Part shown: positions 2 to 17,072 of the stretch, piece after piece
Position numbering within the stretch: position 1 is the stretch's first letter
Layout of the letters: each line of letters begins with the position of its first letter
IMG/VR virus record: IMGVR_UViG_3300010155_004417
Span: 1-26,432 of that record
Reading direction: 5' to 3' (one strand)
Length of the DNA stretch: 26,432 nt
DNA from: a virus
The notes under the pieces: model-generated
What the model was told of the DNA's origin: nothing
Database searches by the model: none
The model's input: only the letters and a program-made list of their open reading frames with translations
Position numbers and translations under genes: made by a program

Positions 2-2914
2 AAGCCATTTTATATGGTGGCTAGAGATTTTATGAATCACTGCGCGCTTAAGCACGAAGTTAACGAAGGTACCGGTCGAATAACTCAATTCTCGAGCGGA
101 ATGTTGAAAAGAATATCATCACTAATAGGATATGGAGTGTCTGAATCTGCGGATAATATAGCTGACCTCTCACAGACAGCGGGAGATAAGATATCGTTAA
201 ATGCATTTAGAAAGTCAATTGGAAACGGACAGTTTGTGGCGACATTTAACGAAGGGTGGGGAGATACAAGCTCTGGCGATAGTGAAATGGTCACAGGCCA
301 GAGCTATTACGCAGACTCATTCTTTAAAAATGAAAAGTCAGGCGTGACAAAGAGCATAAAGAGATTTACAAAGCTTGCATCTGACCTTGAAACACTAGAG
401 TCTTCAATGTATAATTTTTGCAAAACATATTTCCCAGGCATCCCATTCACCGGAGGCGGAGGAAGCCGCCGCACCACCAGGGCATCAGGAGAAGATGATG
501 CAGAGTCAATAAATCTTGTCGGTCAGGTACAGGCCAGCAACAGGGGAAGGAACTCACTAAATAATCCAGCATCTCTATTTCAGCGGATCTATGAGGCTAT
601 AGCTGAACGAGTAGAGTCGGATTATGCACCTTCTGACGGTGGAATCGGAGTCGGAGAGACAAGTGGATATGCAGTTATGATGGCATCTGCTATGGATCCA
701 GAAGCTGCGTGGGCTGGACTAAAGTGGATCTGGTCGAAGATGAGAAAAAGTGAAAATGATACAGACGATAATGAGGAGAATTTAGAGGCGTCAGCTACAA
801 TTTATCTAGATGCCATATGGGATGCATTTGGTCTAGATGAGTCAACGAATAGGGGAGCTCAGAATCCAGATACAATAGAGTTTTACGGAAACGGATATGA
901 TAGTGACACTGCACCTCTTAATTTGTATGCATATGGTAGCGAAGGTACTAACTGGGCAGACTATTTCGGATCAGATCCTTCGGGTGATATAGGTAGTGAA
1001 AGATTAACATGCGATTACAATGGTCCGTGGGAGCTTTCATATCTCAGTCAGGGAAGAGACTGGAATACCATGTCGAAGCTACACGATATGCTATTAGGCG
1101 ATAAAGGTCCTATGTCGACAAACGGCGGCGTTGATTATCTAATCAATGATGTCCGTGATGCAATTTCTGACTGGGAGACGTCAGTTATATCCGGATATGA
1201 GGTTGACGAGGATGTCTCTGTAGGAGATAAGACATCTACACTTAAGATAGATGAATATGGCAGGGTGATGATGGGCTGGATAATTCTTCTTGTTATATTT
1301 AAGGAGTCTCTAACCCTTTGTATTCCGAGAGCTAGTCACAGTCCAGACACTACATTCCGTATCGGATGGTCTAGAAGAGCTGCGTGGTCGCTGGTGAATG
1401 CAAATGATATCAAAGGTCTTGATCCGGATGAAAGGACAAGCACGATAGCAGGTTCTGACTATAATGAAGTAACATCTGGAGAGTGGGATCCATCCAGCGG
1501 ATTTGGATTCAGAGACGCTGTAGAGGAGAATCTAGATCTATTCTATAAATATTTTATCACAATGATGGAATATGAGGTTAATGTGTGGAATAACATGTAT
1601 TATATCGTTGAGATATGTGACAGGGTTAAAGACACAGTAAATGACATAGTCTCAACATTTAGTGAGTCATCCACATCGAATGATCTAATAAAAGAGATGA
1701 AAGCTATCCAGAAAGATCCGAAATTAAGCTCCATTTTATTTTCATCATTGACTCCAGATCAGGTGAGGTTGTCTAGATACCTTCATAGCGCGCTTGGACA
1801 GACAAATAGAACATATCCATACCTCCCAGCCTCATCAGCAGTCATACCTAACACGTCAAAAAATCTTGGAACAGCATCTCGATTAAAGGGATTTTTAGAC
1901 TCGGAGGATACAGGTAAAAAGAGGATATTTACAATAGGCTTGCCATCAGGTCTGGTGGAATTTTTAAGGAGAGCCGCTTCAAGATCTCTTCTTGATCCAG
2001 ATTTCAACGAGTCAACAATTGTAAAGATATCACTATGGAAAAGAAATCTTCTAACAGAGACCACAGCTGACGTCCCAGTAGAATATCTATTTGATCTAAA
2101 ACGATTCATGCTTGATGGAAGGAGATCGTGGCCAATAACCTCGAGAAATATGTCTTCATATTCGGATGCCAAAGAGATAGATTCAGCGTGGCAGTATTTT
2201 AAAGGTCAGACAATAGATGATATGCTTAATGACGCAGTAATTTTAAAATATGATAGATATGGAGTGGGAACAACGTTTCAGGGCACTGCTTATTCTGATG
2301 ACTTTAGAGAAAAGATTGCTGACGATGGTACCCTAGATTCTTTAACTGAAGAGCTCATGCCAACGTGTGCTAATACAACTGGAAAATCTAAGGATATCCT
2401 TGATGAGATTTTTTATAATCACGTAACAGATTATTATCTCAAGCTATACCTACGATTAACGTCTGGTATCGATGTTAGAGAGGAAGTTTTTTGCTTCAAA
2501 GATGAGGACACAGAGATAATAGAGGCAGATTCAAATCTTTCATCTAGAAGAAAAAAGTGGGCAAGTCTTCTTAAATCTATGTATGGCACAAGAGACATGG
2601 CTAGTAGCATAACATACCAGAGGGTGCTTGGCGAGCTTGATAGATCAATATTCTTAAGCCCTGAGCGATACAAGAATAGAATCATCTATCCAAAGATATT
2701 TGACAGGGTCTTTTGTGTTCTCGTTGATGAATCTTGGTGGGAGTCTGACGAGCCAGAGGCGTTTAGCGCAGTTGATTTTGCTACAGGCATCAATAGATTT
2801 CAGAATGTCGCAGCTAAAAGCAAGGTGGCAAGATTATCACTAAAATCTAAGACAGACGATCCATCATTTTTTCAATACTACATAACAGTTACTTTATTGC
2901 CAGAATTTGATTAG
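2..2914 (+). CDS. Large virion-type protein of unknown function, 5' end cut by window
   Basis: The reading frame is open to the left edge, so at least 970 residues are present and the true start lies upstream. The first in-frame ATG, at position 14, has no ribosome-binding site before it. I do not recognise the family. The protein is acidic, rich in Ser, Asp and Tyr, and has no signal peptide. The hydrophobic run near residues 420-430 is too short and isolated to be a convincing membrane anchor. A Gly/Arg-rich linker lies near residues 150-160. It is followed after 26 bases by a strong Shine-Dalgarno sequence and the fibronectin-like protein, so it heads a row of large structural-type genes. 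Size and context suggest a tail, baseplate or neck component; this is inference from position only. Confidence 0.6.
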   Translation, partial: KPFYMVARDFMNHCALKHEVNEGTGRITQFSSGMLKRISSLIGYGVSESADNIADLSQTAGDKISLNAFRKSIGNGQFVATFNEGWGDTSSGDSEMVTGQSYYADSFFKNEKSGVTKSIKRFTKLASDLETLESSMYNFCKTYFPGIPFTGGGGSRRTTRASGEDDAESINLVGQVQASNRGRNSLNNPASLFQRIYEAIAERVESDYAPSDGGIGVGETSGYAVMMASAMDPEAAWAGLKWIWSKMRKSENDTDDNEENLEASATIYLDAIWDAFGLDESTNRGAQNPDTIEFYGNGYDSDTAPLNLYAYGSEGTNWADYFGSDPSGDIGSERLTCDYNGPWELSYLSQGRDWNTMSKLHDMLLGDKGPMSTNGGVDYLINDVRDAISDWETSVISGYEVDEDVSVGDKTSTLKIDEYGRVMMGWIILLVIFKESLTLCIPRASHSPDTTFRIGWSRRAAWSLVNANDIKGLDPDERTSTIAGSDYNEVTSGEWDPSSGFGFRDAVEENLDLFYKYFITMMEYEVNVWNNMYYIVEICDRVKDTVNDIVSTFSESSTSNDLIKEMKAIQKDPKLSSILFSSLTPDQVRLSRYLHSALGQTNRTYPYLPASSAVIPNTSKNLGTASRLKGFLDSEDTGKKRIFTIGLPSGLVEFLRRAASRSLLDPDFNESTIVKISLWKRNLLTETTADVPVEYLFDLKRFMLDGRRSWPITSRNMSSYSDAKEIDSAWQYFKGQTIDDMLNDAVILKYDRYGVGTTFQGTAYSDDFREKIADDGTLDSLTEELMPTCANTTGKSKDILDEIFYNHVTDYYLKLYLRLTSGIDVREEVFCFKDEDTEIIEADSNLSSRRKKWASLLKSMYGTRDMASSITYQRVLGELDRSIFLSPERYKNRIIYPKIFDRVFCVLVDESWWESDEPEAFSAVDFATGINRFQNVAAKSKVARLSLKSKTDDPSFFQYYITVTLLPEFD

Positions 2915-2940
2915 AGATCTTACACCACACAGGAGAGGAA

Positions 2941-4959
2941 ATGGGAAAAAGGAAATTCTTCAAATCATCATTTTCTTCAGATGATAGCTTTGTAGGAACG
3001 ACTGTTGAAGCTGCTATTGCTGGGCTTGATGAGCTAACAGATGGCTGGGATTTTGTGACATACCCCAGCGCACCAGTTACCCAGATAGACATTCCAGAGC
3101 CAGCTAAAATAACATCAAATTTCACTTATAATTTTTACACCAGAGACGAGAGGACTAATGGGGCTGGAAGATTTGCTGTGCTCGATATCAACAATCTAAC
3201 GCAAGAAGATGAATTTATTAAAAAATCTGATAGATTCCCTAGGTTTAATAGATTATTCATATTGCCTACAAGATTTGAAAACGAGGACAAATATCTTAAA
3301 GGTCTCGTAAAAAGATTAGGACCAAATATAATAAAAGATAACTTAGAAGAGATGCAGTATGAAGATTCGATGGCAACAGCAAATTTTTCTTCAATGAGAT
3401 TAAAAGATGATTTTTTAGATGAGGAGTTTTATAATGCTCTCTCATCGTCAATATCATTTTTTGGATTAAAACAGGACACAAGCGGAAATCAGCAAGCATC
3501 TGAGCTAGAGTCTGAGCTGACAGGTTCAACATTTTCAACTCAAGGATCACAGATTAGAAATTCTCTTTCAAATATTCAATCACAAGGTGTCGCTTACGCC
3601 CCGTCTGATACGAGAAAAGAGATTTCACAAAATGCACTGTCAAGTGCAACAAACATAGACTTTTCTGCAATGATCAACAATAAGATCGTAAAGAATATAA
3701 TACAGGCCTCTATTGAAGCAAAGTCAAATATCTATGAAAATGAATTGAATACAGTTTTAGAATCAGCAAAAACAATACAAGATGGAGCAATTGGAAATAC
3801 AACTCCAGGAACAATTCCATCTGATGAATTTGAATTAGCAATAGGTGGGCAAATTCACATGCTCGCATTAGACTCAGAGACAACTAAAGGGATTCAAGAT
3901 AGTATTGATGATGCAATGGAGATGAATGAGACGTCCTACCCAATAGGATATCTAGTTGAAAAGATAGAGCTTGCGCAGGTGGGAGAAGATTTTGAAAGAA
4001 TAGAGCATACTCCGATAATAGTGGAAGGATATAGGCCTGTTAATCTACTTGACAAAGATATACGATATGGAGCGACATACATCTATAATGTTAGGACTGT
4101 AGCTCTCACGAAAATTGAGGCGCTAAGGAGAGATTACGCAGATGATGTAGAGGATCAGACTGTCATGGCAACCATGATGGTCGCATCATCAGGTATATCT
4201 ACAAAGGTAGACTGTGTCGAGACAATACCCCCAAACCCACCGCAAAATCTTAGGTTCCAGTGGGACTATAGTGAGAGAAATTTGGTTCTATTTTGGGAAG
4301 AGGAGCTGAATCCACAGAGGGATGTTGTCAGGTATCAGATATTTAAGAGAAAATCTATTCACGTGCCATTTACTCTTATAAATGAGTTTGACTTTGATAG
4401 ATCAACGTCGAGAGTTGTTCCCCTTGAAAAGGCACCAAAAGATAAGATTATAAGAATGATGGGACCAAACAAGATGTTTAGAGATAAATCATTTAAAAAA
4501 AATGAATCATACATCTACACACTCGCTGCAATTGACGCCCGCGGATTCTCATCAAATTACTCAGTTCAACTTCGAGTGAGATTTGATATGTCAAGAAATA
4601 AGATCGAAGTAGATCTAGTATCTAGATCAGGAGCTCCCAAGCCTTATCCAAATCTATATCTAAATAGAGATCTTTTTGTTGATACAATTAAAGATTCGGG
4701 TCACGAGAGGATGAGAATTTTCTTCGATCCTGAATATTATGATGTCTTTAAGACAAAGACAATTAAGACATACAGAAAAAAGAAGCCAAAGATTATAAAA
4801 AAGACCCAATTTCTAGATTTGATATCTAATAACTATAAGTTACAGATAATTAACGTAGATAGCCAACTTAGCAAGGTTGTAAATATATCAATTGATGACC
4901 AATCAGGTGACATGCTTGAGATTCCCATGACAGATACCACATTATTGACCATTTCTTGA
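2941..4959 (+). CDS. Virion structural protein with fibronectin-III-like domains
   Basis: The 672-residue protein starts directly after a strong AGGAGAGG ribosome-binding site (2931-2938). Residues about 430-545 read as a fibronectin type III-like beta sandwich: a Pro-rich entry (PPNPPQNLRF), a WDYSERNLVLFW strand pair, a VVRYQIFKRK strand and a late SYIYTLAAIDARG strand. A second, weaker segment of the same kind spans about residues 335-400 (YLVEKIEL, then YIYNVRTVAL). The N-terminal half is Ser, Asn and Gln rich and predicted helical. Fibronectin-III modules are common in phage tail and baseplate proteins, where they mediate weak surface or protein contacts. The neighbours are other large structural-type genes. 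The domain class is a motif reading; assignment to a particular tail part is inference. Confidence 0.65.
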   Translation: MGKRKFFKSSFSSDDSFVGTTVEAAIAGLDELTDGWDFVTYPSAPVTQIDIPEPAKITSNFTYNFYTRDERTNGAGRFAVLDINNLTQEDEFIKKSDRFPRFNRLFILPTRFENEDKYLKGLVKRLGPNIIKDNLEEMQYEDSMATANFSSMRLKDDFLDEEFYNALSSSISFFGLKQDTSGNQQASELESELTGSTFSTQGSQIRNSLSNIQSQGVAYAPSDTRKEISQNALSSATNIDFSAMINNKIVKNIIQASIEAKSNIYENELNTVLESAKTIQDGAIGNTTPGTIPSDEFELAIGGQIHMLALDSETTKGIQDSIDDAMEMNETSYPIGYLVEKIELAQVGEDFERIEHTPIIVEGYRPVNLLDKDIRYGATYIYNVRTVALTKIEALRRDYADDVEDQTVMATMMVASSGISTKVDCVETIPPNPPQNLRFQWDYSERNLVLFWEEELNPQRDVVRYQIFKRKSIHVPFTLINEFDFDRSTSRVVPLEKAPKDKIIRMMGPNKMFRDKSFKKNESYIYTLAAIDARGFSSNYSVQLRVRFDMSRNKIEVDLVSRSGAPKPYPNLYLNRDLFVDTIKDSGHERMRIFFDPEYYDVFKTKTIKTYRKKKPKIIKKTQFLDLISNNYKLQIINVDSQLSKVVNISIDDQSGDMLEIPMTDTTLLTIS

Positions 4960-5014
4960 TAATGATTTACTTCGAATACCTTTTATCTATATATTTAATG
5001 ACAGGAGCGTAAAA

Positions 5015-5713
5015 ATGGGATTTCTTGATCAGAGTACCAATAATATTATTTTAGACGCGGTTTTAACAGACCTCGGAAGAGAGGCTTTATCTAGAAATGA
5101 TGGAAGTTTTGAAATTTTTAAATTTGCATTTTCGGATGAAGAAGTCGACTATGGTAATATAGTACACTTTGGAAGAACTGTAGGAAAAGAAAAGATTGAA
5201 AAAAATACACCAGTTTTAGAGGCAGTGACACAGGGAAATCTTGGTCAAAAGTATAGATGTAGGTCAATTAACAATGATGCGCTAACTAGGCTTCCATCAC
5301 TATCTATAACTGAGGGATTGACAGATGATATACTGTCTTTGTCTAGGACAAGTACAACAGGTGCTACATCTGAATTTGTTAAATTCAAACAGGCTCTAGA
5401 GTCAGGTACACTTGATCCTGATTTGACGGATTTCAGCTATAGGCTTACAGTAGATTATCTTTTCCTTGGGATAACGAATAGGGTCCCAGATAGTGTGGAT
5501 ACAAATAATGTGGCGATATATACAATACCTTCTGCCGCTTCAATCGACGCACAGAATCTATCTTCAGTGGGCATGACATTTTATGCAAAATCAGTATCAT
5601 CTGATCTGTTTTCTTCATATCAGCAAAAAGGCGGATCTGTTGTCGAAAAGATAGCAACTCTGTCAGGTGTCAATTCTGGTGCCACACTAAGTTTTAGAAT
5701 TCAGATATCATAA
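5015..5713 (+). CDS. Conserved phage structural-type protein
   Basis: The 232-residue protein has a clear AGGAG ribosome-binding site (5003-5007), seven bases from the ATG. The N-terminus (MGFLDQSTNNIILDAVLTD, then LGREALSRNDGSF and KFAFSDEEVDYG) is of a type I associate from memory with uncharacterised virion proteins of large T4-like marine phages; I cannot name a function. The C-terminal half is mostly alternating hydrophobic beta-strand pattern and ends in SFRIQIS. It stands 15 bases before the next structural gene and 55 bases after the fibronectin-like gene, so it is probably co-expressed with them. A small baseplate or tail-attachment component is plausible. Confidence 0.6.
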   Translation: MGFLDQSTNNIILDAVLTDLGREALSRNDGSFEIFKFAFSDEEVDYGNIVHFGRTVGKEKIEKNTPVLEAVTQGNLGQKYRCRSINNDALTRLPSLSITEGLTDDILSLSRTSTTGATSEFVKFKQALESGTLDPDLTDFSYRLTVDYLFLGITNRVPDSVDTNNVAIYTIPSAASIDAQNLSSVGMTFYAKSVSSDLFSSYQQKGGSVVEKIATLSGVNSGATLSFRIQIS

Positions 5714-5728
5714 TATTTTGAGGTAATA

Positions 5729-7000
5729 GTGGCGACATTTAAAGAACTTATAAGCGCTGACAAGAAGACAACTAAGTCATTTCTTAATCAGCTGGTTGAT
5801 ATAATCCAGGAGGACATTTCTGGATCTCTTACGAGAAAGACATATCAGGTATATGTCACAGGCGGGATAGGCCCTGGTGTGACATCTTCTCTATTTCAAA
5901 CTGTATACGATCAGGATTTCTCTTTACAAACTGCAAATCCAGTACTTGATCTAACTGTTGGAATATTTTCTGGAAGCGTAGCAGTTGCATCTTCATCAAC
6001 CGGTGTAGATTCGACAGGAAAGGTGCTTTTTCCATCGAATTCTCTTATGATGAGAGAGAAGATATCAAACTATAGACAGTTTTCACAGTTGCTTCTTGGA
6101 AATGCAGATAGTCAATTTGCATCTCCATTTTCTGGATTTGCTACCACAGACCTTATAGATCATGGATTATTCATCTGCTTTAAACGCTTATTTGCAAGAG
6201 ATATGATCAAGAGAGAGACATTTGCTATGAGGTTTTATACGTCAGCTTCTGCATCTCCGGGAGAATCAGGTAGACCAAAAACATCCGGGCCGGGTGAAGA
6301 ACCCGGCGATGGTAAGTGTGAAACAAATCTCATAATGACTTCAATATCTGGATCGACTATCTTTACAGACGTAGGATCATCAAATAACCAGGAGTCATCT
6401 TTTGGCGGTGCTGTAGGAAACATTGTTAATTCTTCAAATACAGATGAAAACGTTGGTCTAATGTTCTATGAGCAAGGAATTGCATTATTCGACATAGAAA
6501 AGATAATATCAGGAACACAACACGTGTCTGGTGTAATCGCAGCTATGAATGATCAAAATCCTGCATCTGTTGGAACAGGATACACAATTATTGGAACAGG
6601 TAGCTATGGCAACGGAAAAGCAAAGTTCGTTCCGGACCTCATGGTATCTGCATCTATGGATGATATACTAAATCACTTCGCATCTTGTAGATTTAGCTCT
6701 GGATCTAACACAGCAATAACATTTCAAAATCTAACAAATATAAATTCGACACTAATATTCTGTAGAGCGACTGCAGATGAATTTAATTACTCATCGAATC
6801 CTACTTATACCGATGCTACGACGAACAAGATACGTGTAATTGAGACTGGTCAGGAAAATACGCAAAAGGCGTTTTGTTTCATAACTACAGTTGGATTATA
6901 TGATGCGGCTGATAATCTTCTCGCTGTAGCAAAGCTATCTAGGCCAATAGAAAAGAACAATGAGAAGGATATAACGATTAGAGTTAGGCTTGATTTCTAA
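5729..7000 (+). CDS. Virion structural protein sharing a C-terminal module with the next gene
   Basis: The 423-residue protein starts at GTG (5729), the only plausible start, six bases after TTGAGG (5718-5723). The N-terminal part is predicted helix and then beta rich. Residues about 175-195 form a Gly, Pro and Glu-rich linker encoded by unusually GC-rich DNA that contains a 7-bp perfect hairpin. From about residue 240 on, the pattern NVG-x3-Y-x2-G-[IV]-A, and at the end GLYDAADNLL, then LSRPIEKNNEK and IRVRLDF, matches the C-terminus of the following 828-residue protein. The shared ending suggests both proteins bind the same partner or fold on the same scaffold. I assign it to the tail or baseplate by context only. 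Confidence 0.6.
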   Translation: MATFKELISADKKTTKSFLNQLVDIIQEDISGSLTRKTYQVYVTGGIGPGVTSSLFQTVYDQDFSLQTANPVLDLTVGIFSGSVAVASSSTGVDSTGKVLFPSNSLMMREKISNYRQFSQLLLGNADSQFASPFSGFATTDLIDHGLFICFKRLFARDMIKRETFAMRFYTSASASPGESGRPKTSGPGEEPGDGKCETNLIMTSISGSTIFTDVGSSNNQESSFGGAVGNIVNSSNTDENVGLMFYEQGIALFDIEKIISGTQHVSGVIAAMNDQNPASVGTGYTIIGTGSYGNGKAKFVPDLMVSASMDDILNHFASCRFSSGSNTAITFQNLTNINSTLIFCRATADEFNYSSNPTYTDATTNKIRVIETGQENTQKAFCFITTVGLYDAADNLLAVAKLSRPIEKNNEKDITIRVRLDF

Positions 7001-7012
7001 TGGAGATGGTAA

Positions 7013-9499
7013 ATGTCTCTTATAAAGATTCTGCCAGAATATGTTGAAAAATTTTCTCTAACTCTACATCCAGAGGTACGATATACAAGCTCATCATTTC
7101 AAGGTGGAACTGCGTATCCCACTGGAGCGATGCCGGTTGCAGTTAGACCAAGCAAGTGTTTGAAAAATCTAACAGACCCGTCTCAGATGGGGCAGAATTC
7201 ATACGATCCCAATAGCCCAGGAGTGGTTGGATTTAATACCGGTGATTTTTCTATGGTAGCTAATCTCAATGAGGTAAGAAAGAAAGTAAAAGAGATAATG
7301 GCCGTCTCAGGATCATCTGCTGATGTTAGTCTTATACTTGGAAACTACATGGAGCTTGTTAATTCTTCATCTGAAGTTTCAAGAAATAAAAAGAAACTTC
7401 AAATTGTTCGTTTTGATCCCCCTTTCTCATTTACACTAAATTCATCTGTAAAAAATTGTGTTAGAAGTGTCTTAATGCCATTTTACTCATCTTATTATGA
7501 TATGTGTCAATTTTCATATACCAACTATAACACACTTAATTTTTTTACTGGGTCTCTAGTTCCGTCAACTTCGTCCATAATATACCCAAATTTTCAATTG
7601 GGAGATAGTCCCAGACCTTATTCTCCCACCGGCTCATTTAGTTTTGATTTTTATATAAATCCGAGATATGCTAATGACTCCGGAGCAGAGTTTAAAGCTG
7701 GAACTATAATGCACATATCATCAACATTTGCATTATCACTAGTTTCTGGAACGTTACGAGATGGAAATGGATTAGTAGATGGATATAGAATGTTACTCCA
7801 GCTCAGCCACAGTGCAGACATATCTCCATCTACAGTTGATATATCGAAGAAAAATAACACACGTGTGTACCCTAGGGATCTTATATTCACATCTAAAGAT
7901 AACTCTTTAAGAAAGAATCACTGGCATCACGTATGCGTTAGGTGGGGAGGCGATACAGTTAATGATGGCACAGGTAGCATAGTCATAGATGATAATTCAT
8001 ATAATTTTAATGTACCGTCAGCGTCAATACTTCCACCTTCTCATGTAAGTACAAATGCATTATTTATAGGGAATTATTATGAGGCCCCTGTTTCATCTGA
8101 TGAGGGTGATTTTTTTAATAGAAATGCTGGAATAAATGAGGGTGTCTACCCTTATGAATACGGAAGAGTCTCTGGCGATCCAGATGTTTTTCTTTTTAAC
8201 CATCCATTAAATGCTGAGGTTCATGATTTAAAAATATTTGATGATCATATAACTGACAAGAAGATAAAATATAACGAGAAGTTTGGACAAAGAAATTTCG
8301 GATCAGAGATGAATCAAGATAGGCTTATGTTTTATGTTCCTCCCCTTTTTACAAAATCTAGCAAGACTAGAGAGTCACTAATAACGCCGTTTCAAACTGA
8401 GAGAAAGTGGACACAGAATCCATTTAATACAACATTTTCCTTCGGCGTGGGAGGATATCTCATAAATCTTCAAAATTTCACAAGAGAATTTAGAAGGGGC
8501 TATTATCCAAGATTATTTAGTTTGACAGCGTCGACAATAGATACAACTGTTCTAGACGTAACAGCGAATGGATACATATTTGCATCAGGGTCTACGAGAA
8601 AAGCAAATTTAACAATTTTACCCAATGACAATGGCAGGTTTCGACCTGACTACGAGCTGTTAAGAAGTGGTACTATCAATACTGATATGTCTATATTTAA
8701 AAATGCTTATGGTGGAATAGATCTCAGCCTGATCAATATAGATCAGATGATTACAACTGCATCTGCGTATCCAGGGTTGTCTACCGTATCAACGTCTGGT
8801 CTTGAAGCTGCAGCCAGCGGCGGCACTAATGACTTACCAGATGACACGTCAAGCGAGTCAATAGCTGCGCAGGTTGCCGGAGTCACACCTGATAGTATGG
8901 GAGGATCATCGACTTCAACAGGCCCTGTATTGACAATTTATCAAAGAACTAGAGATCCAAGCTCCAATGAGATCTCTATTTTTGATATATCGAATCTTTA
9001 TTATGGAAATAGAATACTTCCTGGGTCACTCTATATCACAGACCCTGACGTCACAGGCTCAGGAGAAAAAGTTAAAATCACCGTTAGAGATAATGAAAAA
9101 GGAGGATTATACAGGGCTGACGCTTTAACAGAACATCCTAAGTGGGCAAATGTTGGCACGGTTCTTTATAATGAAGGAGTTGCTGTCATTAAATCTCCTC
9201 ACATAGCGTATTTTGGAAAGAATAGATTTGAAATGTCATTCAAAGGTGATCAAAATATTCATGTGTTGACAGTTAATATTCCTGCTGGTGTGGGATTGTT
9301 TAACTCATCATCAAATCCACAGTATAAAGTATTATCAGCATCACTTAATGCAAATGACGAGGAGTCTAGATTTGTATACGTATCGGGACTTAATCTTCAC
9401 GATGATAATCTTAATATTATCATGAGGGGAAATCTCGCTCAGCCTGTTTTAAAGAGGCAAGAGGATGAATTTTTAATAAGATTTAAGATGGATTTTTAA
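7013..9499 (+). CDS. LamG/concanavalin-like domain virion protein, putative adhesin or tail component
   Basis: The 828-residue protein has the ribosome-binding site GGAGATGG (7002-7009) just before its ATG. Residues about 205-425 look like a laminin-G or concanavalin-like jelly roll: GSFSFDFYINPR at the start, HHVCVRWGG in the middle, IVIDDN, LFIGNYYE, and the closing strand AEVHDLKIFDDHITDKKI. Such domains usually bind glycans, or act as structural domains in phage fibres and decoration proteins. A Gly, Ser and Thr-rich linker follows at about residues 600-640. Then comes a beta-rich C-terminal module (IFDISNLYYGN, YRADALTEHPKWANVG) that ends in FLIRFKMDF and is related to the previous gene's C-terminus. 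Host-surface binding is inference from the LamG fold. Confidence 0.7.
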   Translation: MSLIKILPEYVEKFSLTLHPEVRYTSSSFQGGTAYPTGAMPVAVRPSKCLKNLTDPSQMGQNSYDPNSPGVVGFNTGDFSMVANLNEVRKKVKEIMAVSGSSADVSLILGNYMELVNSSSEVSRNKKKLQIVRFDPPFSFTLNSSVKNCVRSVLMPFYSSYYDMCQFSYTNYNTLNFFTGSLVPSTSSIIYPNFQLGDSPRPYSPTGSFSFDFYINPRYANDSGAEFKAGTIMHISSTFALSLVSGTLRDGNGLVDGYRMLLQLSHSADISPSTVDISKKNNTRVYPRDLIFTSKDNSLRKNHWHHVCVRWGGDTVNDGTGSIVIDDNSYNFNVPSASILPPSHVSTNALFIGNYYEAPVSSDEGDFFNRNAGINEGVYPYEYGRVSGDPDVFLFNHPLNAEVHDLKIFDDHITDKKIKYNEKFGQRNFGSEMNQDRLMFYVPPLFTKSSKTRESLITPFQTERKWTQNPFNTTFSFGVGGYLINLQNFTREFRRGYYPRLFSLTASTIDTTVLDVTANGYIFASGSTRKANLTILPNDNGRFRPDYELLRSGTINTDMSIFKNAYGGIDLSLINIDQMITTASAYPGLSTVSTSGLEAAASGGTNDLPDDTSSESIAAQVAGVTPDSMGGSSTSTGPVLTIYQRTRDPSSNEISIFDISNLYYGNRILPGSLYITDPDVTGSGEKVKITVRDNEKGGLYRADALTEHPKWANVGTVLYNEGVAVIKSPHIAYFGKNRFEMSFKGDQNIHVLTVNIPAGVGLFNSSSNPQYKVLSASLNANDEESRFVYVSGLNLHDDNLNIIMRGNLAQPVLKRQEDEFLIRFKMDF

Positions 9500-9510
9500 A
9501 AAGAATATTG

Positions 9511-9783
9511 ATGATTAGCATAAGAGAAATGGCTGAAGGCTGGATAAACTACGTAAGAGACAAACAGCCAGATGGTCTCTCTGATGAGATGAGAGAGATG
9601 TCTATTGAGAGAGCGAAAATTTGTAATGCATGCCCTAGCCTTCTTCTTAGAGAGACTAAGATTATGAAAAAAACGATATTTAAATTTAGGTGTGCTGAGT
9701 GTGGCTGTGCATTCCCAATGATGACATATTCAAAGAGGAAGAAATGCCCTAAAGGAAAGTGGCCAGATGATACTGGGTCTTGA
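9511..9783 (+). CDS. Small zinc-ribbon-like protein
   Basis: This 90-residue protein could also begin at the TTG at 9508, but the ATG three bases later is the ordinary choice. No strong ribosome-binding site is visible. Six cysteines are arranged as C38-x2-C41, C61-x2-C64-x-C66 and C79, a layout that would hold one or two zinc ions. A predicted helix (residues 1-35) precedes them. Its last 17 bases overlap the resolvase gene, so the two are likely translated together. Small cysteine-rich proteins of this type are common and uncharacterised in T4-like phages. DNA, RNA or protein binding are all possible. No function is assigned. Confidence 0.7.
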   Translation: MISIREMAEGWINYVRDKQPDGLSDEMREMSIERAKICNACPSLLLRETKIMKKTIFKFRCAECGCAFPMMTYSKRKKCPKGKWPDDTGS

Positions 9784-10321
9784 TATTTCAACAAGTTGCA
9801 CAGGATGGTGCATTCTAGATAATGATGAATCTTTAATAAAGATGGGGTTTATACAGCTATCAAAGATAAAGGGTCTATTTAAAAAGGCACAAGCTGTAAG
9901 AGATGAGATATCAAAAATCAATATAGGGTATGAAATTGATAGTATTCGTATAGAAGAGGATTTTCAAGCATATCGTCCAGGATTTTCATCAGCCAAGACT
10001 CTTTCTACACTATCGAAGTTCAACGGAATAGTATCATATATTTGTTTTGAAGAATTTTATATAGATCCAATATTTGTGAATGTGAATAAGGCAAGAAAGT
10101 CTCTAGGTATTAAGATAAAGAGAGAGAAGGATTGTGGAAAGTCAACTAAAGAACAAATTCTAGATTGGGTCTCTAGTCAGATGAGCGCTACGAATTATAA
10201 GTGGCCGGTTAAAATTCTCAAATCTGGCCCTAGAAAGGGCCAGACTATTTTAGATCCTGTTTGTTATGATATGGCTGATTCATATGTGATAGCTGCATCA
10301 TCTAATCACATGAACATTTAA
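9767..10321 (+). CDS. RuvC-like Holliday junction resolvase
   Basis: The 184-residue protein would cut four-way DNA junctions or branched replication intermediates before packaging. It has an RNase H-like fold pattern: strand one MILGLDISTSCTGW with acidic residue D6, a second strand IRIEED with E63 or E64, and a C-terminal helix YDMADSYVIA with D168 and D171. These fit the four acidic metal ligands of the RuvC superfamily. The length is normal for RuvC and its viral relatives. The ribosome-binding site AAAGGAA (9751-9757) lies inside the preceding zinc-ribbon gene, which it overlaps by 17 bases. T4 uses an unrelated enzyme (endonuclease VII, gp49) for this job; a RuvC-type enzyme is a known alternative in phages. 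Confident at superfamily level. Confidence 0.8.
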   Translation: MILGLDISTSCTGWCILDNDESLIKMGFIQLSKIKGLFKKAQAVRDEISKINIGYEIDSIRIEEDFQAYRPGFSSAKTLSTLSKFNGIVSYICFEEFYIDPIFVNVNKARKSLGIKIKREKDCGKSTKEQILDWVSSQMSATNYKWPVKILKSGPRKGQTILDPVCYDMADSYVIAASSNHMNI

Positions 10322-10344: not shown

Positions 10345-11310
10345 ATGGAGACATTTACCTCTAAGATTGACTTTATAAGACACGCACTAGGTGATGTTGA
10401 AATAGCTAGAGACGGTGTTAATGTTGCAACAGTTTGTCCAAATTGTGGATCTGAAAGCAGAAAGAAGAAGAAATTTTCAATAAACACTGAAAGCTGGAAT
10501 TGTCATTGTTGGGTATGCGGAATTAAGGGAAAGAATTTAGGAAATATTCTTTTTAAATACTCTAGCTCTTCATCTTCTAATGAGTTTAAAAGAAGATTTC
10601 TTTGTGAAAAAATTAATTTTTCGAATACTGATGACATAGAGGAGAAGATAGATCTTCCTGACGGTTTTACACCTCTTTGTCTAAATTTACAATCTAAAGA
10701 TCCTGATATAAGAGACTCTATAGACTATCTAAAAAAAAGAGGAATCAGTCATAATGACTTTTGGTATTTTAAGATAGGCTCTGTGACGAGAGGAAGGTTC
10801 CGACGACGAGTTATTATTCCATCATTTGACCTAGAGGGAAATTTAAACTTTTTCTCTGCGAGAGCGATTGATTCAGATGTATATAGAAAGTATATTAATT
10901 CAAATGCTAAAAAGAGTAACATCATATTCAATGAGTTAAATATAGACTGGTCTAAGGAGTTGACAATCACAGAGGGCCCATTTGATCTTTTGAAATGCAA
11001 CCAAAATGCAACGTGTTTATTAGGTGCAACTCTCAGTAAAAACTCTTATCTCTTTAAGAGAATAGTCTCTAATAGAACACCTGTACTTCTTTCTTTAGAT
11101 TCAGATGCCAGGGGTAAATCACTAAAGATAGCTGACATGCTTATAAACTATTCTTGTCATGTTAGAGTGATGGATTTAGAAAATTTTCAAGATGTTGGAG
11201 AGATGTCTCGATTTGATTTTGAAAGACTTAAGGAGAAGTCAAGCCAGTGGTCAAGAGAGGGGTCAATAATGGAAAAAATTTCAACAATTCAAACGGGATC
11301 GTTGTTTTAG
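10345..11310 (+). CDS. DnaG-type DNA primase (zinc finger plus TOPRIM)
   Basis: The 321-residue protein should make RNA primers for lagging-strand synthesis. The N-terminus holds a CHC2-like zinc finger: C31-P-N-C34, then C53 or C55 and C58 in the segment WNCHCWVCG. The TOPRIM catalytic core follows: glutamate motif E210-G-P-F-D214 (TITEGPFDLLKC) and the D252-S-D254 metal motif (LLSLDSDARG). It is shorter than bacterial DnaG (about 580 residues) and lacks a helicase-binding C-terminal domain, like small phage primases such as T4 gp61. No helicase gene is in the window. No Shine-Dalgarno sequence is obvious upstream, so the start could be further in; this ATG keeps the full zinc finger. Confidence 0.85.
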   Translation: METFTSKIDFIRHALGDVEIARDGVNVATVCPNCGSESRKKKKFSINTESWNCHCWVCGIKGKNLGNILFKYSSSSSSNEFKRRFLCEKINFSNTDDIEEKIDLPDGFTPLCLNLQSKDPDIRDSIDYLKKRGISHNDFWYFKIGSVTRGRFRRRVIIPSFDLEGNLNFFSARAIDSDVYRKYINSNAKKSNIIFNELNIDWSKELTITEGPFDLLKCNQNATCLLGATLSKNSYLFKRIVSNRTPVLLSLDSDARGKSLKIADMLINYSCHVRVMDLENFQDVGEMSRFDFERLKEKSSQWSREGSIMEKISTIQTGSLF

Positions 11311-11629: not shown

Positions 11630-14600
11630 ATGAGAATAATACATTTAGCTGATATTCACTGGCGGGGTTTATCTCGTCACAAGGAATATCGGGAATCCTT
11701 TTCAAGATTTTTTGATAAGGCGCGGATGCTAAATCCGGATGTGATTTATATCGGCGGAGATATAGTTCACAACAAGACGCAGGGTATATCCCCAGAGCTT
11801 ATAGATTGTCTCTGTTGGTGGTTTACTGGCCTATCTGATATTGCACCCACCCACGTAATTCTTGGCAACCACGATGGTCTGATGCTTAATAATGACCGAC
11901 AAGATGCTATATCTCCTATAATATCTGCATTAAAAAATCCCAATATTCACCTATATAAAAAGTCTGGAGTGTATCCTGTTAAGAATCATGAAGATTTTAA
12001 CTGGTGTGTTTTTTCATGTTTCGATGAGCCCGGGTGGAGCAGTGTTAGGCCACAAAAAAATAAAATAAACATAGCGCTATTCCATGGAGCTGTGTGGGGG
12101 TCAAAGACAGATATTGATTTTAGCATCGAGGGAGATGTTACAGATGATTTTTTTGATCAATTCGATTTCACTCTTTTAGGAGATATTCACAAACAACAAT
12201 TTTTAGATGAAAGGAGGACTATTGCCTACCCCGGATCTACCATACAACAAAATTATGGTGAAGATCTAGGAAAGGGATTTTTATTTTGGGATATTGAAAG
12301 CAAAGATAAGTTTACTAGTAAATTTTACCCAATCGATCACTCGAAACCGTTTGTGACGATAGAGTGGATGGGAAATGTACAGGATACAGTTGGCGAGTCA
12401 TTCATCTATCCTGACGGATCTAGATTTAGAATAAGATCAAAAAATAAAATATCACACGCAGATAGTAATCAGTTACAACATGCGCTTAAAAGAGAGAAAG
12501 AAGCAGCAGAGGTGGTATTCAAGTCTGAATCATCCCTTGATGTTTCTAAGATAACGACGACTGCAGGAATACTAAACAAGACGAATCTTAGAGATTCAAG
12601 CACACATAAAAGGCTCATAAGAGAATTTTATGCAGATCTTGATTTGAATGATGATGATTTTAAAAATTTAGATAATTTAATTGAAAAATATGTGTCACAG
12701 GTAACCGACAATCACGATATTTTAAGAAATATCAGCTGGCAAATTAATTCTATTAAATTTAATAATTTATTCGCATATGGTAAAGATAATTTTATTAATT
12801 TTGAAAATTTACCAGGAATAACTGGCATATTTGGAAAAAATAGAAAGGGAAAGTCATCTATAGTAGGATCTCTAATGTATTGTCTCTTTAACACAACTGA
12901 CAGGGGATCGATAAAAAATCTTCACATAATCAATAGTAGAAAAAATAAATGTGATGCACTAATTGACGCGACTGTTAATGGAGATAAGGTAAGAATCTAT
13001 AGAGAGACAGTATCACACCAGACAAGAAAAGGTGAGATTTATGCTTCAACATCTCTTGATTTAACAAAAGTAAATGAAGAAGGAGATGAAAAAGAGAATA
13101 TAACGCAGGAGCAGAGGCGAGAGACAGAGAAGATATTAAGAAAGATGATTGGAACGTCTGATGATTTTTTAATGACATCGTTAGCTTCACAAGGAGAGAT
13201 GAATACATTTATCAGAGAAAAAGCTACGATGAGAAAGATGATTCTCACAAAATTTTTAGATCTCGTTGTTTTTGAAAAAATGCACGAGATATCAAAATCT
13301 GAGACATCTAATTTAAGGGCAAGATTAAAACTATATCCGGAAATAGACAGAGACGAGGAGATAGATAATTGTCAATTTGATGCAATAAAAGTTTCAGATG
13401 ATCTAAAAATTATAGAAAGAGAGATATCACAAAAAAGAAATATTCTCAAGGAGCTGACGATTGATCTAGCACTATCAGATAATCCTGATATTATCACTGA
13501 GGCGGAGTGTGTCAATCAGAAAAAAGCTGTTGATAATTTAACCTTTAAGATTAAAGATTTTGATACGCTAATTCTAGATATTGATGATGAGATTAAATCT
13601 TTGACATTAAAAAATGAAAAAATAGAACTTGTGAAGTCAGATTTTTCTATTGGTGATCTTAAATCTAAGCTTGAGATTCAAAAAATCCTTGAGAAGGAGT
13701 CTGTAAAGCTGAGCTATGAATACGAAACATATAAGGCTGAGCTTGAAAGACAGAATAAATCAATTAAAAAACTTAATGACGTTCCATGTGGCGACAGCTT
13801 TCCATCATGTAAATTCATAAGAGACTCTCATAAAGATCGCACTAAAATAAAATTACAATCACAGATAGTTGAAAAATCTCTAAAAATTTTCAATGATATT
13901 AAGAAATCTTTAGAAGACGTTATGTGTGAGGGAATAGATGAAAAAATTGAAAAATACAACGCGCTTGTTAAGAGACAATCTGATTTATCTATAGCTTCGT
14001 CAAAGGCGCAGATTAAATTAAATAATTCTTTAAACGATAAAAGTCATACAGTTTCTATCTTAGCTGTAGAAGATGAAAAATTACAAGAGATGGAATCTAG
14101 GATGACATACGGTGAAGAAAGTCCGTCATTTGTCATTAGATCAAGAATTGCATCTCTTGAAAATGACATAAGAAATCTTGACAAAAAGAGAATGAGACGA
14201 TTTGAAAAAATAGCTCGTTTAAAAACAGAGATATCAAAGATAGAAAATGACAGAGACGAATTTGAAAAGATAAAAAATGAGCTAAGAATATATGATCTTT
14301 TCATACAGGCAGTGTCTAAAACAGGAATTCCTCTGCAGATAATGATGTCGCAGCTTCCTATTATTAACGACGAGATCTCTAAGATACTACAAGGAGTCGT
14401 AGGGTTTACGGTAGAGCTTGAGGCAGATCCAGACTCGAACTCAATGGATGTTTATATAAATTACGGAGATTCTAGACGGATAATTGAGCTAGCATCAGGC
14501 ATGGAAAAAATGATGTCATCTCTAGCAATTAGAGTTGCTCTAATTAACGTCTCATCTCTAACAAAGACAAATATGCTGATAATCGATGAAGGATTTGGCG

Positions 14601-14767
14601 CTCTTGATGAGACAAATATTGAAGCGTGTAGTAGACTATTAGAGTCACTTAAGAAGTGGTTTAGAAATATCATTGTTATATCGCATGTTGATGCTATAAA
14701 AGATGCTGTAGATAACTCTTTGGAGATAACAAAAAATGGAAAAGATGCAAAAGTTTATAGTAGATAG
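11630..14767 (+). CDS. Single-chain Mre11-Rad50 (gp47-gp46 / SbcD-SbcC) nuclease-ATPase fusion
   Basis: This 1045-residue protein should resect DNA ends for recombination-dependent replication and repair. Residues 1 to about 340 are a complete Mre11-type metallophosphoesterase: D8-I-H10-W, G-D44, G-N80-H81-D82, F-H152-G and G-D185-I-H187. From about residue 368 a Rad50-type ATPase begins: Walker A GKNRKGKSS (about 400-410), long coiled coil, a hook-like C720-x6-C727 in the middle, signature motif LASGMEK (954-960), Walker B MLIIDEG (982-988), D-loop GALD, and H-switch ISHVD near the end. In T4 these are separate proteins of about 340 (gp47) and 560 (gp46) residues. The frame is continuous with all motifs intact, so this is a true fusion. 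No Shine-Dalgarno sequence precedes the ATG. Confidence 0.9.
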   Translation: MRIIHLADIHWRGLSRHKEYRESFSRFFDKARMLNPDVIYIGGDIVHNKTQGISPELIDCLCWWFTGLSDIAPTHVILGNHDGLMLNNDRQDAISPIISALKNPNIHLYKKSGVYPVKNHEDFNWCVFSCFDEPGWSSVRPQKNKINIALFHGAVWGSKTDIDFSIEGDVTDDFFDQFDFTLLGDIHKQQFLDERRTIAYPGSTIQQNYGEDLGKGFLFWDIESKDKFTSKFYPIDHSKPFVTIEWMGNVQDTVGESFIYPDGSRFRIRSKNKISHADSNQLQHALKREKEAAEVVFKSESSLDVSKITTTAGILNKTNLRDSSTHKRLIREFYADLDLNDDDFKNLDNLIEKYVSQVTDNHDILRNISWQINSIKFNNLFAYGKDNFINFENLPGITGIFGKNRKGKSSIVGSLMYCLFNTTDRGSIKNLHIINSRKNKCDALIDATVNGDKVRIYRETVSHQTRKGEIYASTSLDLTKVNEEGDEKENITQEQRRETEKILRKMIGTSDDFLMTSLASQGEMNTFIREKATMRKMILTKFLDLVVFEKMHEISKSETSNLRARLKLYPEIDRDEEIDNCQFDAIKVSDDLKIIEREISQKRNILKELTIDLALSDNPDIITEAECVNQKKAVDNLTFKIKDFDTLILDIDDEIKSLTLKNEKIELVKSDFSIGDLKSKLEIQKILEKESVKLSYEYETYKAELERQNKSIKKLNDVPCGDSFPSCKFIRDSHKDRTKIKLQSQIVEKSLKIFNDIKKSLEDVMCEGIDEKIEKYNALVKRQSDLSIASSKAQIKLNNSLNDKSHTVSILAVEDEKLQEMESRMTYGEESPSFVIRSRIASLENDIRNLDKKRMRRFEKIARLKTEISKIENDRDEFEKIKNELRIYDLFIQAVSKTGIPLQIMMSQLPIINDEISKILQGVVGFTVELEADPDSNSMDVYINYGDSRRIIELASGMEKMMSSLAIRVALINVSSLTKTNMLIIDEGFGALDETNIEACSRLLESLKKWFRNIIVISHVDAIKDAVDNSLEITKNGKDAKVYSR

Positions 14768-15041
14768 CGACACAGATTCATGTTTTTTTATTACTGAAGA
14801 TCCTGATTTTTTAAAGGTCCCGTTTTTTTGCCCTGTGTGTGATTTTATTATGAGCAATATAGAAGATTCAAAATTTTATAATGAGTTTGGATGCTGTTCT
14901 TCATGCAGTATGAAATTTGCACAATCTAGACGAGCTGAGTGGAAATTAGGATGGAGACCATCAAAAAAAGAGATTAATGATCATAAGAAGTTCATTGAAT
15001 CTCAACCATTGAATTTATTTTTAGACGATGACCATAATTAG
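14736..15041 (+). CDS. Small Cys-rich zinc-finger-like protein
   Basis: The 101-residue protein overlaps the end of the fusion gene by 32 bases. GGAG (14722-14725) lies ten bases before this ATG; a second in-frame ATG at 14745 is possible. Likely zinc ligands are C32-x2-C35 (FCPVCDF) and C53 or C54 with C57 (GCCSSCSMKF). A conserved-looking basic stretch, AEWKLGWRPSKKEI, follows. I recall similar small proteins with a CSSC and a GWRP element in T4-like phages, without known function. Translational coupling to the recombination gene suggests a role in DNA metabolism or late regulation, but nothing in the sequence proves it. Confidence 0.7.
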   Translation: MEKMQKFIVDSDTDSCFFITEDPDFLKVPFFCPVCDFIMSNIEDSKFYNEFGCCSSCSMKFAQSRRAEWKLGWRPSKKEINDHKKFIESQPLNLFLDDDHN

Positions 15042-15060: not shown

Positions 15061-15447
15061 ATGCTTAGCTCAAGTGAAATCAACGCTTTAGGACAAGTCC
15101 TTAATGACACGTGGGGACAGTCAACACGTGGAGACTTTAGAACACCAACAATGTCAATACAAACAACTCTTCAAGGTGATATCCTTTCGTGTAATTATAC
15201 CACGATAGTTCACCTAGCATCAGAGAGAAACCTTAGAGATCAGGTGAAGGTTTTTGAAGAGGAGTCGATAAAACTAATTAATGACTATGCCAAGGAGATA
15301 AAGAAGGAATTCAAGGATATCGCAGGAAGAGTGCTAAAGCTCAAAGAACTCCATACGTCTGATAGTGTTGAGTTAATAACTGCATCACCATTTACGCCAA
15401 GAAAGACAGCATATTATAGAAGATATACAAGATTCCAGGTCGAGTAA
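15061..15447 (+). CDS. Unknown small protein directly upstream of terminase
   Basis: The 128-residue protein has a good ribosome-binding site (GGGAG, 15047-15051) and its stop overlaps the terminase start (TAATG), so translation of the two is coupled. The N-terminal half looks like beta strands (MSIQTTLQGDILSCNYTTIV). Residues about 70-105 form a charged amphipathic helix, and the C-terminus is basic (TPRKTAYYRRYTRF). In T4 the gene before the large terminase is the small terminase gp16, so this position is suggestive. However, I see no helix-turn-helix or coiled-coil core typical of small terminases. A neck or head-completion role is an equal possibility. Confidence 0.65.
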   Translation: MLSSSEINALGQVLNDTWGQSTRGDFRTPTMSIQTTLQGDILSCNYTTIVHLASERNLRDQVKVFEEESIKLINDYAKEIKKEFKDIAGRVLKLKELHTSDSVELITASPFTPRKTAYYRRYTRFQVE

Positions 15448-17072
15448 TGGCTAAAATTAACAAGTCAAGGCAGATATCTGAGATAGTCAAGTGTGGAAAA
15501 GATCCTGTTTATTTTTTCAACTCTTACATGAAGATCCAGCATCCTGTAAGAGGATTGATTAAATTTAATACGTACCCTTTTCAAGATGAGTGTGTAGATA
15601 AATTCATTGATGAAAGATTTTCAATAATTTTGAAGTCAAGACAACTGGGCATGTCCACTCTTTCTGCTGCATACGCCGTGTGGCTTGCTCTGTTTCAAAG
15701 GGATAAAAATATTCTTGTCATCGCTACGAAGCTCAGCGTGGCTCAAAACTTTATCACAAAGGTCAAGACCATGATAAGAAGTCTTCCAAAGTGGTTAGTT
15801 CTTGCAGAGATTGTGACGAATAACAAGCAGCTAATAGAGTTTAGTCACGGATCATCTATAAAAGCAATTCCTACGTCAGACGATGCAGGCAGATCAGAGG
15901 CGTTATCTCTATTGATTATTGATGAAGCAGCATTTGTGAGAAATTTTGATGAGCTATGGATGGGACTATATCCAACCATCTCTACAGGAGGTAGGGTTAT
16001 TATTCTATCTACACCAAACGGTGTTGGAGGGCAATACTATAAGCTTTACACAGACGCTGAAGCTGGACTTAATGAGTTTTCACACATAAAATTACCATGG
16101 GAAATACATCCAGAGAGAGATCAAGCATGGTTTGATGAGACGACAAAAAACCTCTCTGATAGACAAATATCTCAGGAATATCTGTGTGACTTTGCATCTT
16201 CTGGAGAGACATTTTTATCTCCATCTGATATATCGTGGATAAGAGAAATGTGTGTTCCTCCAAAAGAAAGAGCCGGTGAAGATAGAAACGTGTGGATATG
16301 GAAGTATCCACTTTCTGAACACAGCTATATTGTTACAGCAGATATAGCTCGAGGAGATTCACAGGATTTTTCTACATTTCATATAATTGATGTCGGTGAG
16401 GGGGAGTGTGTTGCAGAGTATAAAGGAAAGATTCCCCCTGATAGATTTGCAGAACTTTTAAATGAATTTGGATTGAGATATAATAAGGCTTTAATGTGTC
16501 CTGAAAATAATAGCTATGGCTATGCAACCATACTGAAGCTTCAAGAGTTACAGTATCCGAATCTTTACTATAGAAAGAGAAAGGCAATTTTTATAGGAGA
16601 CTATGTGCCAAAGTCAGATAGTGATGTTGCAGGTTTTACGACTAGCGGAAAAACACGTAGTTTAATACTAACAAAGCTAGAAGAAGTTTTAAGAAATAAA
16701 CAGATTAAAGTCTATTCAACTAGATTTTACGAGGAGCTGAAGACATTTATCTGGAAAGGAAGTAAGGCACAGGCTATGAAAGGATATCATGATGATCTGG
16801 TGATAAGTTTCGCAATAGCTATGTGGTTGTATGATACATCTTCTGAGTATAGCCAAAGCTCAAAAGAATTAAACGAAGCCATGCTAAATGCTATGAAGAT
16901 GACTAGGAATACATACGATGATATGCCTGGCGCGATAACTGAGGGCAGACCGCACAGCTCTACATCAAGAAATCCTAATGAGCACTCAGATAGCATAAAG
17001 AAAAATTCTCTATCACCAGGGTGGAATAATAAATTGCAGATAATGAAAGACCATGATTGGCTTATCAAGTGA
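15447..17072 (+). CDS. gp17: Terminase large subunit (gp17-like)
   Basis: This 541-residue motor pumps phage DNA into the prohead and cuts it. The N-terminal ATPase has a Walker A-like segment K63-S-R-Q-L-G-M-S-T71, Walker B LLIID159-E160 and the coupling motif LSTPNG (188-192). The C-terminal RNase H-like nuclease has D299 (TADIARGD), E353 (CPENNSYG) and D449 or D450 (YHDDLVIS), matching the T4 catalytic triad. The usual Walker A lysine before S/T is replaced by methionine, with a lysine at the front of the motif, a deviant form seen in other terminases. The length is a little shorter than T4 gp17 (610). The start overlaps the upstream stop. The portal gene follows after eight bases. Confidence 0.95.
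   Translation: MAKINKSRQISEIVKCGKDPVYFFNSYMKIQHPVRGLIKFNTYPFQDECVDKFIDERFSIILKSRQLGMSTLSAAYAVWLALFQRDKNILVIATKLSVAQNFITKVKTMIRSLPKWLVLAEIVTNNKQLIEFSHGSSIKAIPTSDDAGRSEALSLLIIDEAAFVRNFDELWMGLYPTISTGGRVIILSTPNGVGGQYYKLYTDAEAGLNEFSHIKLPWEIHPERDQAWFDETTKNLSDRQISQEYLCDFASSGETFLSPSDISWIREMCVPPKERAGEDRNVWIWKYPLSEHSYIVTADIARGDSQDFSTFHIIDVGEGECVAEYKGKIPPDRFAELLNEFGLRYNKALMCPENNSYGYATILKLQELQYPNLYYRKRKAIFIGDYVPKSDSDVAGFTTSGKTRSLILTKLEEVLRNKQIKVYSTRFYEELKTFIWKGSKAQAMKGYHDDLVISFAIAMWLYDTSSEYSQSSKELNEAMLNAMKMTRNTYDDMPGAITEGRPHSSTSRNPNEHSDSIKKNSLSPGWNNKLQIMKDHDWLIK

Follow-up and report, generated by a model that had tools for sequence, protein, structure and literature searches.

In relatives of a phage gene that joins Mre11 and Rad50 in one polypeptide, the fused gene has quite probably been split again by homing endonucleases at one site inside the nuclease, and the split has outlasted the decay of the endonuclease. 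In these phages Mre11 would be built from a pair of polypeptides, of which the second also makes up Rad50. Most of the family carries a C-X6-C hook rather than CXXC. The gene from which we started lies at 11630..14767 (+) of the window, the whole 26,432-nt stretch of viral DNA analysed (IMG/VR record IMGVR_UViG_3300010155_004417). It very probably encodes a single-chain Mre11-Rad50 (SbcD-SbcC) nuclease that acts as paired chains, is gated by ATP and resects phage DNA ends for recombination-dependent replication.

The gene is a single open frame with an ATG start and no interruption (1045 codons plus stop). Its parts, with domain borders taken from the secondary structure of an AlphaFold model, are the following:

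11630..14767 (+), fused Mre11-Rad50 gene (one frame; family matches; same fused frame in 205 loci)
11630..12331 (+), Mre11 phosphoesterase domain, residues 1-234 (Pfam Metallophos, invariance in 56 rows, AlphaFold model)
12350..12526 (+), Mre11 capping domain, residues 241-299 (AlphaFold secondary structure; Foldseek match 7dog)
12596..12706 (+), Mre11 C-terminal helix-loop-helix, Rad50-docking, residues 323-359 (AlphaFold model; length conserved in relatives)
12707..12733 (+), Mre11-Rad50 linker of 9 aa, residues 360-368 (AlphaFold model, family alignment)
12734..13264 (+), Rad50 N-terminal ATPase lobe, residues 369-545 (Pfam AAA_23, model, alignment)
13265..13780 (+), Rad50 coiled coil, ascending arm, residues 546-717 (model helices)
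13781..13819 (+), hook loop of VPCGDSFPSCKFI type, residues 718-730, with C720-X6-C727 replacing CXXC (sequence, model, alignment)
13820..14314 (+), Rad50 coiled coil, descending arm, residues 731-895 (AlphaFold model)
14324..14761 (+), Rad50 C-terminal ATPase lobe, residues 899-1044 (Pfam, PDB matches, model, alignment)

Pfam Metallophos (PF00149) matches residues 1-188 (E 4.9e-12; 47.1 bits against a curated cut-off of 21.5), AAA_23 matches residues 374-601 (E 4.3e-8), and SbcC_Walker_B is found near the C terminus with an E of 7.7e-5, below the family cut-off. The PHROGs match is the SbcC-like phrog_77 (E 5.8e-51), and PDB sequence matches relate the N-terminal half to SbcD/Mre11 and the C-terminal half to Rad50 and SbcC. 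The AlphaFold model, built from 56 family members (mean pLDDT 85.9), shows all Mre11 and Rad50 elements in order, with a pTM of 0.55 that makes the relative placement of the domains uncertain. Its best PDB matches by Foldseek are Mre11-Rad50 complexes (7zr1, 7yzp, 3auy), other SMC-type heads and the S. aureus SbcD nuclease plus capping domain (7dog). The best matches among viral models include giant-virus and phage DNA repair exonucleases of about 1200-1400 residues aligned over the full length, and full-length matches in the viral structure library occur in giant viruses and Tenacibaculum phages. The first-pass annotation had described a phage Mre11-Rad50 in a single polypeptide, and this is genuine: both domain sets are complete in one frame, where T4 has two genes.

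A single-sequence scan of IMG/VR returned six full-length relatives, one of them 80% identical and located on a 118-kb contig, and a profile scan returned at least 591 confirmed relatives. The whole fused protein is found in one frame in 205 fetched loci (160 distinct sequences), including the 80%-identical copy, and the isolate genome of Microcystis phage Mel-JY01 contains the fusion as one 1066-aa CDS; a hidden stop or frameshift, one of the initial concerns, is therefore discarded. Since independent contigs and an isolate phage have the same fused frame, we reject an assembly or frameshift artefact joining two neighbouring genes, a reading whose probability is negligible. The 205 loci come from many independent metagenomes, and the linker has 8 or 9 residues in all 56 aligned rows. 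Nothing was found in favour of an artefact: a hook-motif scan made with no selection for fusion gave 120 loci; in 71 of them the 5' context is complete, and 63 of these are fused and 7 split. Only the remaining one, L185, has multiple broken frames, and it was set aside as a poor assembly. An ordinary two-gene layout with a missed stop near 12700, also feared at first, was rejected because it is absent from close relatives; those close relatives that do have two genes are split at the equivalent of about 12206-12220, inside Mre11. We also discarded a cellular or plasmid origin, since the plasmid matches listed cover the Rad50 part alone (about 24% identity) and the matches in genome collections are few, mostly short or on phage-like MAG contigs, MAG labels on phage contigs being unreliable. 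The fused family is large, very abundant and common in aquatic phages.

Two other arrangements were observed during these searches. A contig from a rumen Bacteroidales bin contains a stand-alone Mre11 of 277 aa (L131:4992-5825) with Rad50 about 12 kb away (G003:C1:194710-196953), next to RuvC-like and primase genes. The 735-kb phage LR756501.1 (L004) has, besides its fused gene, a second SbcC-like match with several in-frame stops at 670999-672753.

The fusion itself is not new, a point on which the first-pass annotation was undecided. Mre11/Rad50 fusions, to which the protein belongs by having both domains on one chain with Mre11 first, were described in 2011 by Yoshida, Claverie and Ogata in Mimivirus, five bacteria, eukaryotes, plasmids and Bacillus phage 0305phi8-36 (PMC3175470). 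Mimivirus R555 and the other 2011 fusions share with it the kept capping domain and helix-loop-helix and a short linker; R555 differs in its length (1351 aa vs 1045 aa) and possibly in its hook, which here is C-X6-C, and the bearer here is a tailed phage. The relevant part of a jumbo-phage survey presents SbcC and SbcD as a near-universal partner pair and makes no mention there of a fusion. T4 gp46/gp47 have the same two activities, are also phage-encoded and act in DNA metabolism, but they are two genes with two small ORFs between them, a CPTC (CXXC) hook and GDIFD/GHFH metal motifs. Bacterial SbcCD and archaeal or eukaryotic Mre11-Rad50 share the fold and the catalytic motifs, but they are separate subunits with a CXXC zinc hook, and the coiled coils of SbcC are longer. 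The Mel-JY01 protein (WWT39521.1, annotated as AAA domain containing protein) is fused, 30% identical over its whole length and has a primase two genes upstream, differing in its ordinary CXXC-type hook (CKHC).

In the phosphoesterase domain, the metal-site motifs are D8xH10, G43-D44-I-V-H47, G79-N80-H81-D82, H152 and G184-D185-I-H187. D8, H10, D44, N80-H81-D82, H152, D185 and H187, which the first-pass annotation had named, are all at the given positions and invariant in the 56 aligned relatives, except for one row gapped at D8/H10; apart from this gap, the catalytic positions of both halves are invariant in relatives down to 27% identity. Not every one of the named residues is canonical, though. 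All positions of the motifs DxH, GDxxD, GNHD, H and GHxH are present and invariant, with GDxxH and GDIH replacing GDxxD and GHxH: H47 sits where canonical Mre11 has aspartate, and D185 where it has histidine. Mimivirus R555 has exactly these two departures, with the third Asp of GDxxD replaced by His and His206 by Asp (PMC3175470). Metal use or the rate of the nuclease may differ with the altered site at D185, a change that nevertheless does not vary across the family. The two changed residues could also be taken as a sign that the nuclease is inactive and the fusion a structural tether of DNA ends, but we regard this as very improbable. Down to the same identity none of the other metal ligands varies, H81, H152 and H187 among them, and the split relatives also keep all of them, which implies continued selection for catalysis.

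The covalent link had been proposed to replace the docking interface between Mre11 and Rad50, and this finds no support. The capping domain and the C-terminal helix-loop-helix (helices 323-333 and 341-359) are predicted intact in the model and are followed by the 9-residue linker, which fits the 9-12 residues calculated to span the gap in the Thermotoga complex (PMC3175470). With the docking elements predicted intact and a linker of fitting length, the fusion probably preserves the normal interface and merely makes it covalent.

The Rad50 half has the two lobes and the coiled coil of an ABC-type ATPase of the Rad50/SbcC kind, with Walker A (GKNRKGKS, 402-409) and Q-loop Q521 in the N lobe, and the signature S956GME959, Walker B LIIDE (to E987), D993 and the H-switch H1019 in the C lobe. 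N404, K408 and S409 of Walker A, Q521, S956-G957-x-E959, D986-E987, D993 and H1019 are invariant in the 56 aligned relatives. The full Rad50 ATPase seen by the first-pass annotation holds for Walker A, the signature, Walker B and the H-switch; a hook is present too, but its apex loop is C720-X6-C727 and not CXXC. The apex motif of the family is VPCGDxFPxCKFIKDS, with the cysteines six residues apart, and both are at the C-X6-C positions in 51 of the 56 aligned rows, which were gathered without reference to the hook. The other five are Mel-JY01-type sequences, most of them showing CXXC, and a few fused proteins (L040, L071 and L079) have a C-X8-C hook. Among the two-gene phages compared, CXXC is present in T4, T5, SPO1-like, Melnitz, S-CREM1 and G, with none in the Moorella phage protein. 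The CXXC hook is stated to be conserved across all forms of life and viruses (PMC5093744). Its replacement by C-X6-C looks undescribed, and tethering through the hook may be altered or missing.

At least 22 related phage sequences have the fused gene split again inside the nuclease domain, a sample enriched by a search aimed at splits, so that their frequency is to be read from the hook-motif scan only. After one more scan the distinct N-half sequences numbered 23, with that of LR756508 among them. The split relatives, among them L203, L221, L166, L146, L170, L267-L274 and L288 (IMG/VR), have two ORFs with the break inside the phosphoesterase domain. The first ORF stops just past GDIH; the second opens with MSKKIRIKxKKPWxAYPGSxxQQNYxE and runs through Rad50, comprising the C-terminal part of Mre11 plus Rad50. 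All metal ligands are kept in 23 of 23 N halves, and the tail EIEIDEDDLxKYPGAEVIx is also conserved. One fused protein, that of L154, has the corresponding insert without a break. The stop and the start overlap in many of these relatives (ATGA, GTGA or TTGA), an arrangement that suggests translational coupling.

Several split relatives contain putative homing endonucleases, or remnants of them, in the gap between the halves. Complete ORFs of 289-300 aa, 43% identical to each other, are found there in L281 (3138-4007) and L315 (2979-3881), matching homing-endonuclease PHROGs (best E 4.1e-17, in L315) and, weakly, Vsr. A second contig carries the L315 endonuclease (L338:4001-4900), and an endonuclease 39% identical lies at the same site between the halves of L339 (approximately 3875-4867), a relative only 29% identical to the window protein over the C-terminal half. 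L290 retains just the two termini of the endonuclease, shorter residues are left in L301 and L318, and the remaining split relatives have nothing recognisable. In the 484-kb phage LR756508.1, a different ORF, encoding a zinc-ribbon TnsA-like nuclease, occupies the same split site (L003:3665-4582). The simplest reading of these sequences is that homing endonucleases have split an older fusion at one permissive loop more than once, and that the halves would reassemble. Genes in pieces made by homing endonucleases are known in phage Aeh1 (nrdA/mobE), T4 (topoisomerase gene 60/mobA) and Aeromonas phage 25 (gene 43) (PMC2988022). There, as in the split relatives, a conserved replication gene is broken by an endonuclease gene and its product comes as two polypeptides; the difference is that the interrupted gene is here Mre11-Rad50. 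The re-splitting of Mre11-Rad50 inside the nuclease by a selfish DNA element appears to be undescribed, and no report of an Mre11 split by a homing endonuclease was found among the open-licence papers searched.

A short SbcD was also observed in a T5-like phage (L134:1243-3029), where the annotated protein (D12) has 233 aa and is devoid of the N-terminal metal motifs. The T5 neighbour D11 had no Pfam match, and it might be the missing half of D12.

The direction of change was read from a tree of the Rad50 part, a quick one that leaves out giant viruses and has long branches among two-gene phages. The fused phage sequences cluster in a single supported group, separate from the two-gene T4, T5, SPO1-like and G, with one exception: the fused sequence of the huge phage LR756501 groups with a two-gene sequence, an uncertain placement on a long branch, and a second origin of the fusion is therefore possible. 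The split sequences branch from inside the fused group, and the starred branches require no fewer than four changes of state. These relationships point to the fusion as the older arrangement in the family.

The following genes surround the fusion in the window:

9767..10321 (+), RuvC-like Holliday junction resolvase gene (PHROG RuvC-like resolvase, E 1.1e-11)
10345..11310 (+), DNA primase gene, upstream of the fusion (PHROG DNA primase, E 6.5e-42)
15447..17072 (+), terminase large subunit gene, downstream of the fusion (PHROG terminase, E 1.3e-54)

When 113 loci were searched with the window genes, the primase was found in 103, the terminase in 86 and the RuvC-like resolvase in 75, all lower bounds since many contigs end before reaching those genes. 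Where present, they keep the order RuvC-like resolvase, primase, fusion, terminase. In the Mel-JY01 clade the primase is present, but a terminase was not found adjoining the fusion. A gene of 101 aa at 14736-15041, with no PHROGs family, overlaps the last 32 bases of the fusion gene; 80 of the 113 related loci have it. The region 2-9499 contains large ORFs of 970, 672, 232, 423 and 828 aa essentially without PHROGs or Pfam matches (the first has a marginal one), and several of them are conserved upstream of the resolvase in relatives.

Two chains would most likely pair into the usual head with two nucleases and two ATPases, each chain bearing a coiled-coil arm, and ATP binding and hydrolysis by the Rad50 part would gate the entry of DNA ends into the Mre11 active site. 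The enzyme would resect or open double-strand ends, hairpins or blocked ends of phage DNA, and the resulting 3' tails would feed recombination-dependent replication, which is the role of T4 gp46/gp47. The fusion would set a 1:1 ratio and a local concentration of the two parts while retaining the ordinary docking helices. On the analogy with T4 gp46/gp47, of which it would be a covalent version, and given the resolvase, primase and terminase neighbours, resection of phage DNA ends for replication is the most likely role. The T4 homologue is annotated as needed for host-DNA degradation as well as for recombination, and Rad50 complexes are discussed as acting on foreign DNA (PMC10586767), so the main role could instead be the destruction of host DNA or the countering of host defences. 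This we consider unlikely, because the constant presence of primase and Holliday junction resolvase genes, beside packaging genes, points to phage DNA metabolism. Similar neighbours were noted in 2011: marine homologues of Mimivirus R555 adjoin phage primases and endonucleases and probably belong to phages (PMC3175470).

With the fusion itself already known, this gene is of value as a clearly delimited representative of an aquatic phage family that is very abundant: with both parts in one gene at a 1:1 ratio, Mre11-Rad50 is convenient for structural and single-molecule studies of the ATP gating of the nuclease. Its relatives supply Mre11 enzymes split by nature and a naturally occurring substitute for the CXXC zinc hook. 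The need of the hook for CXXC becomes directly testable with the C-X6-C proteins, and so does, with the split ones, the reassembly of a nuclease broken inside its catalytic domain.
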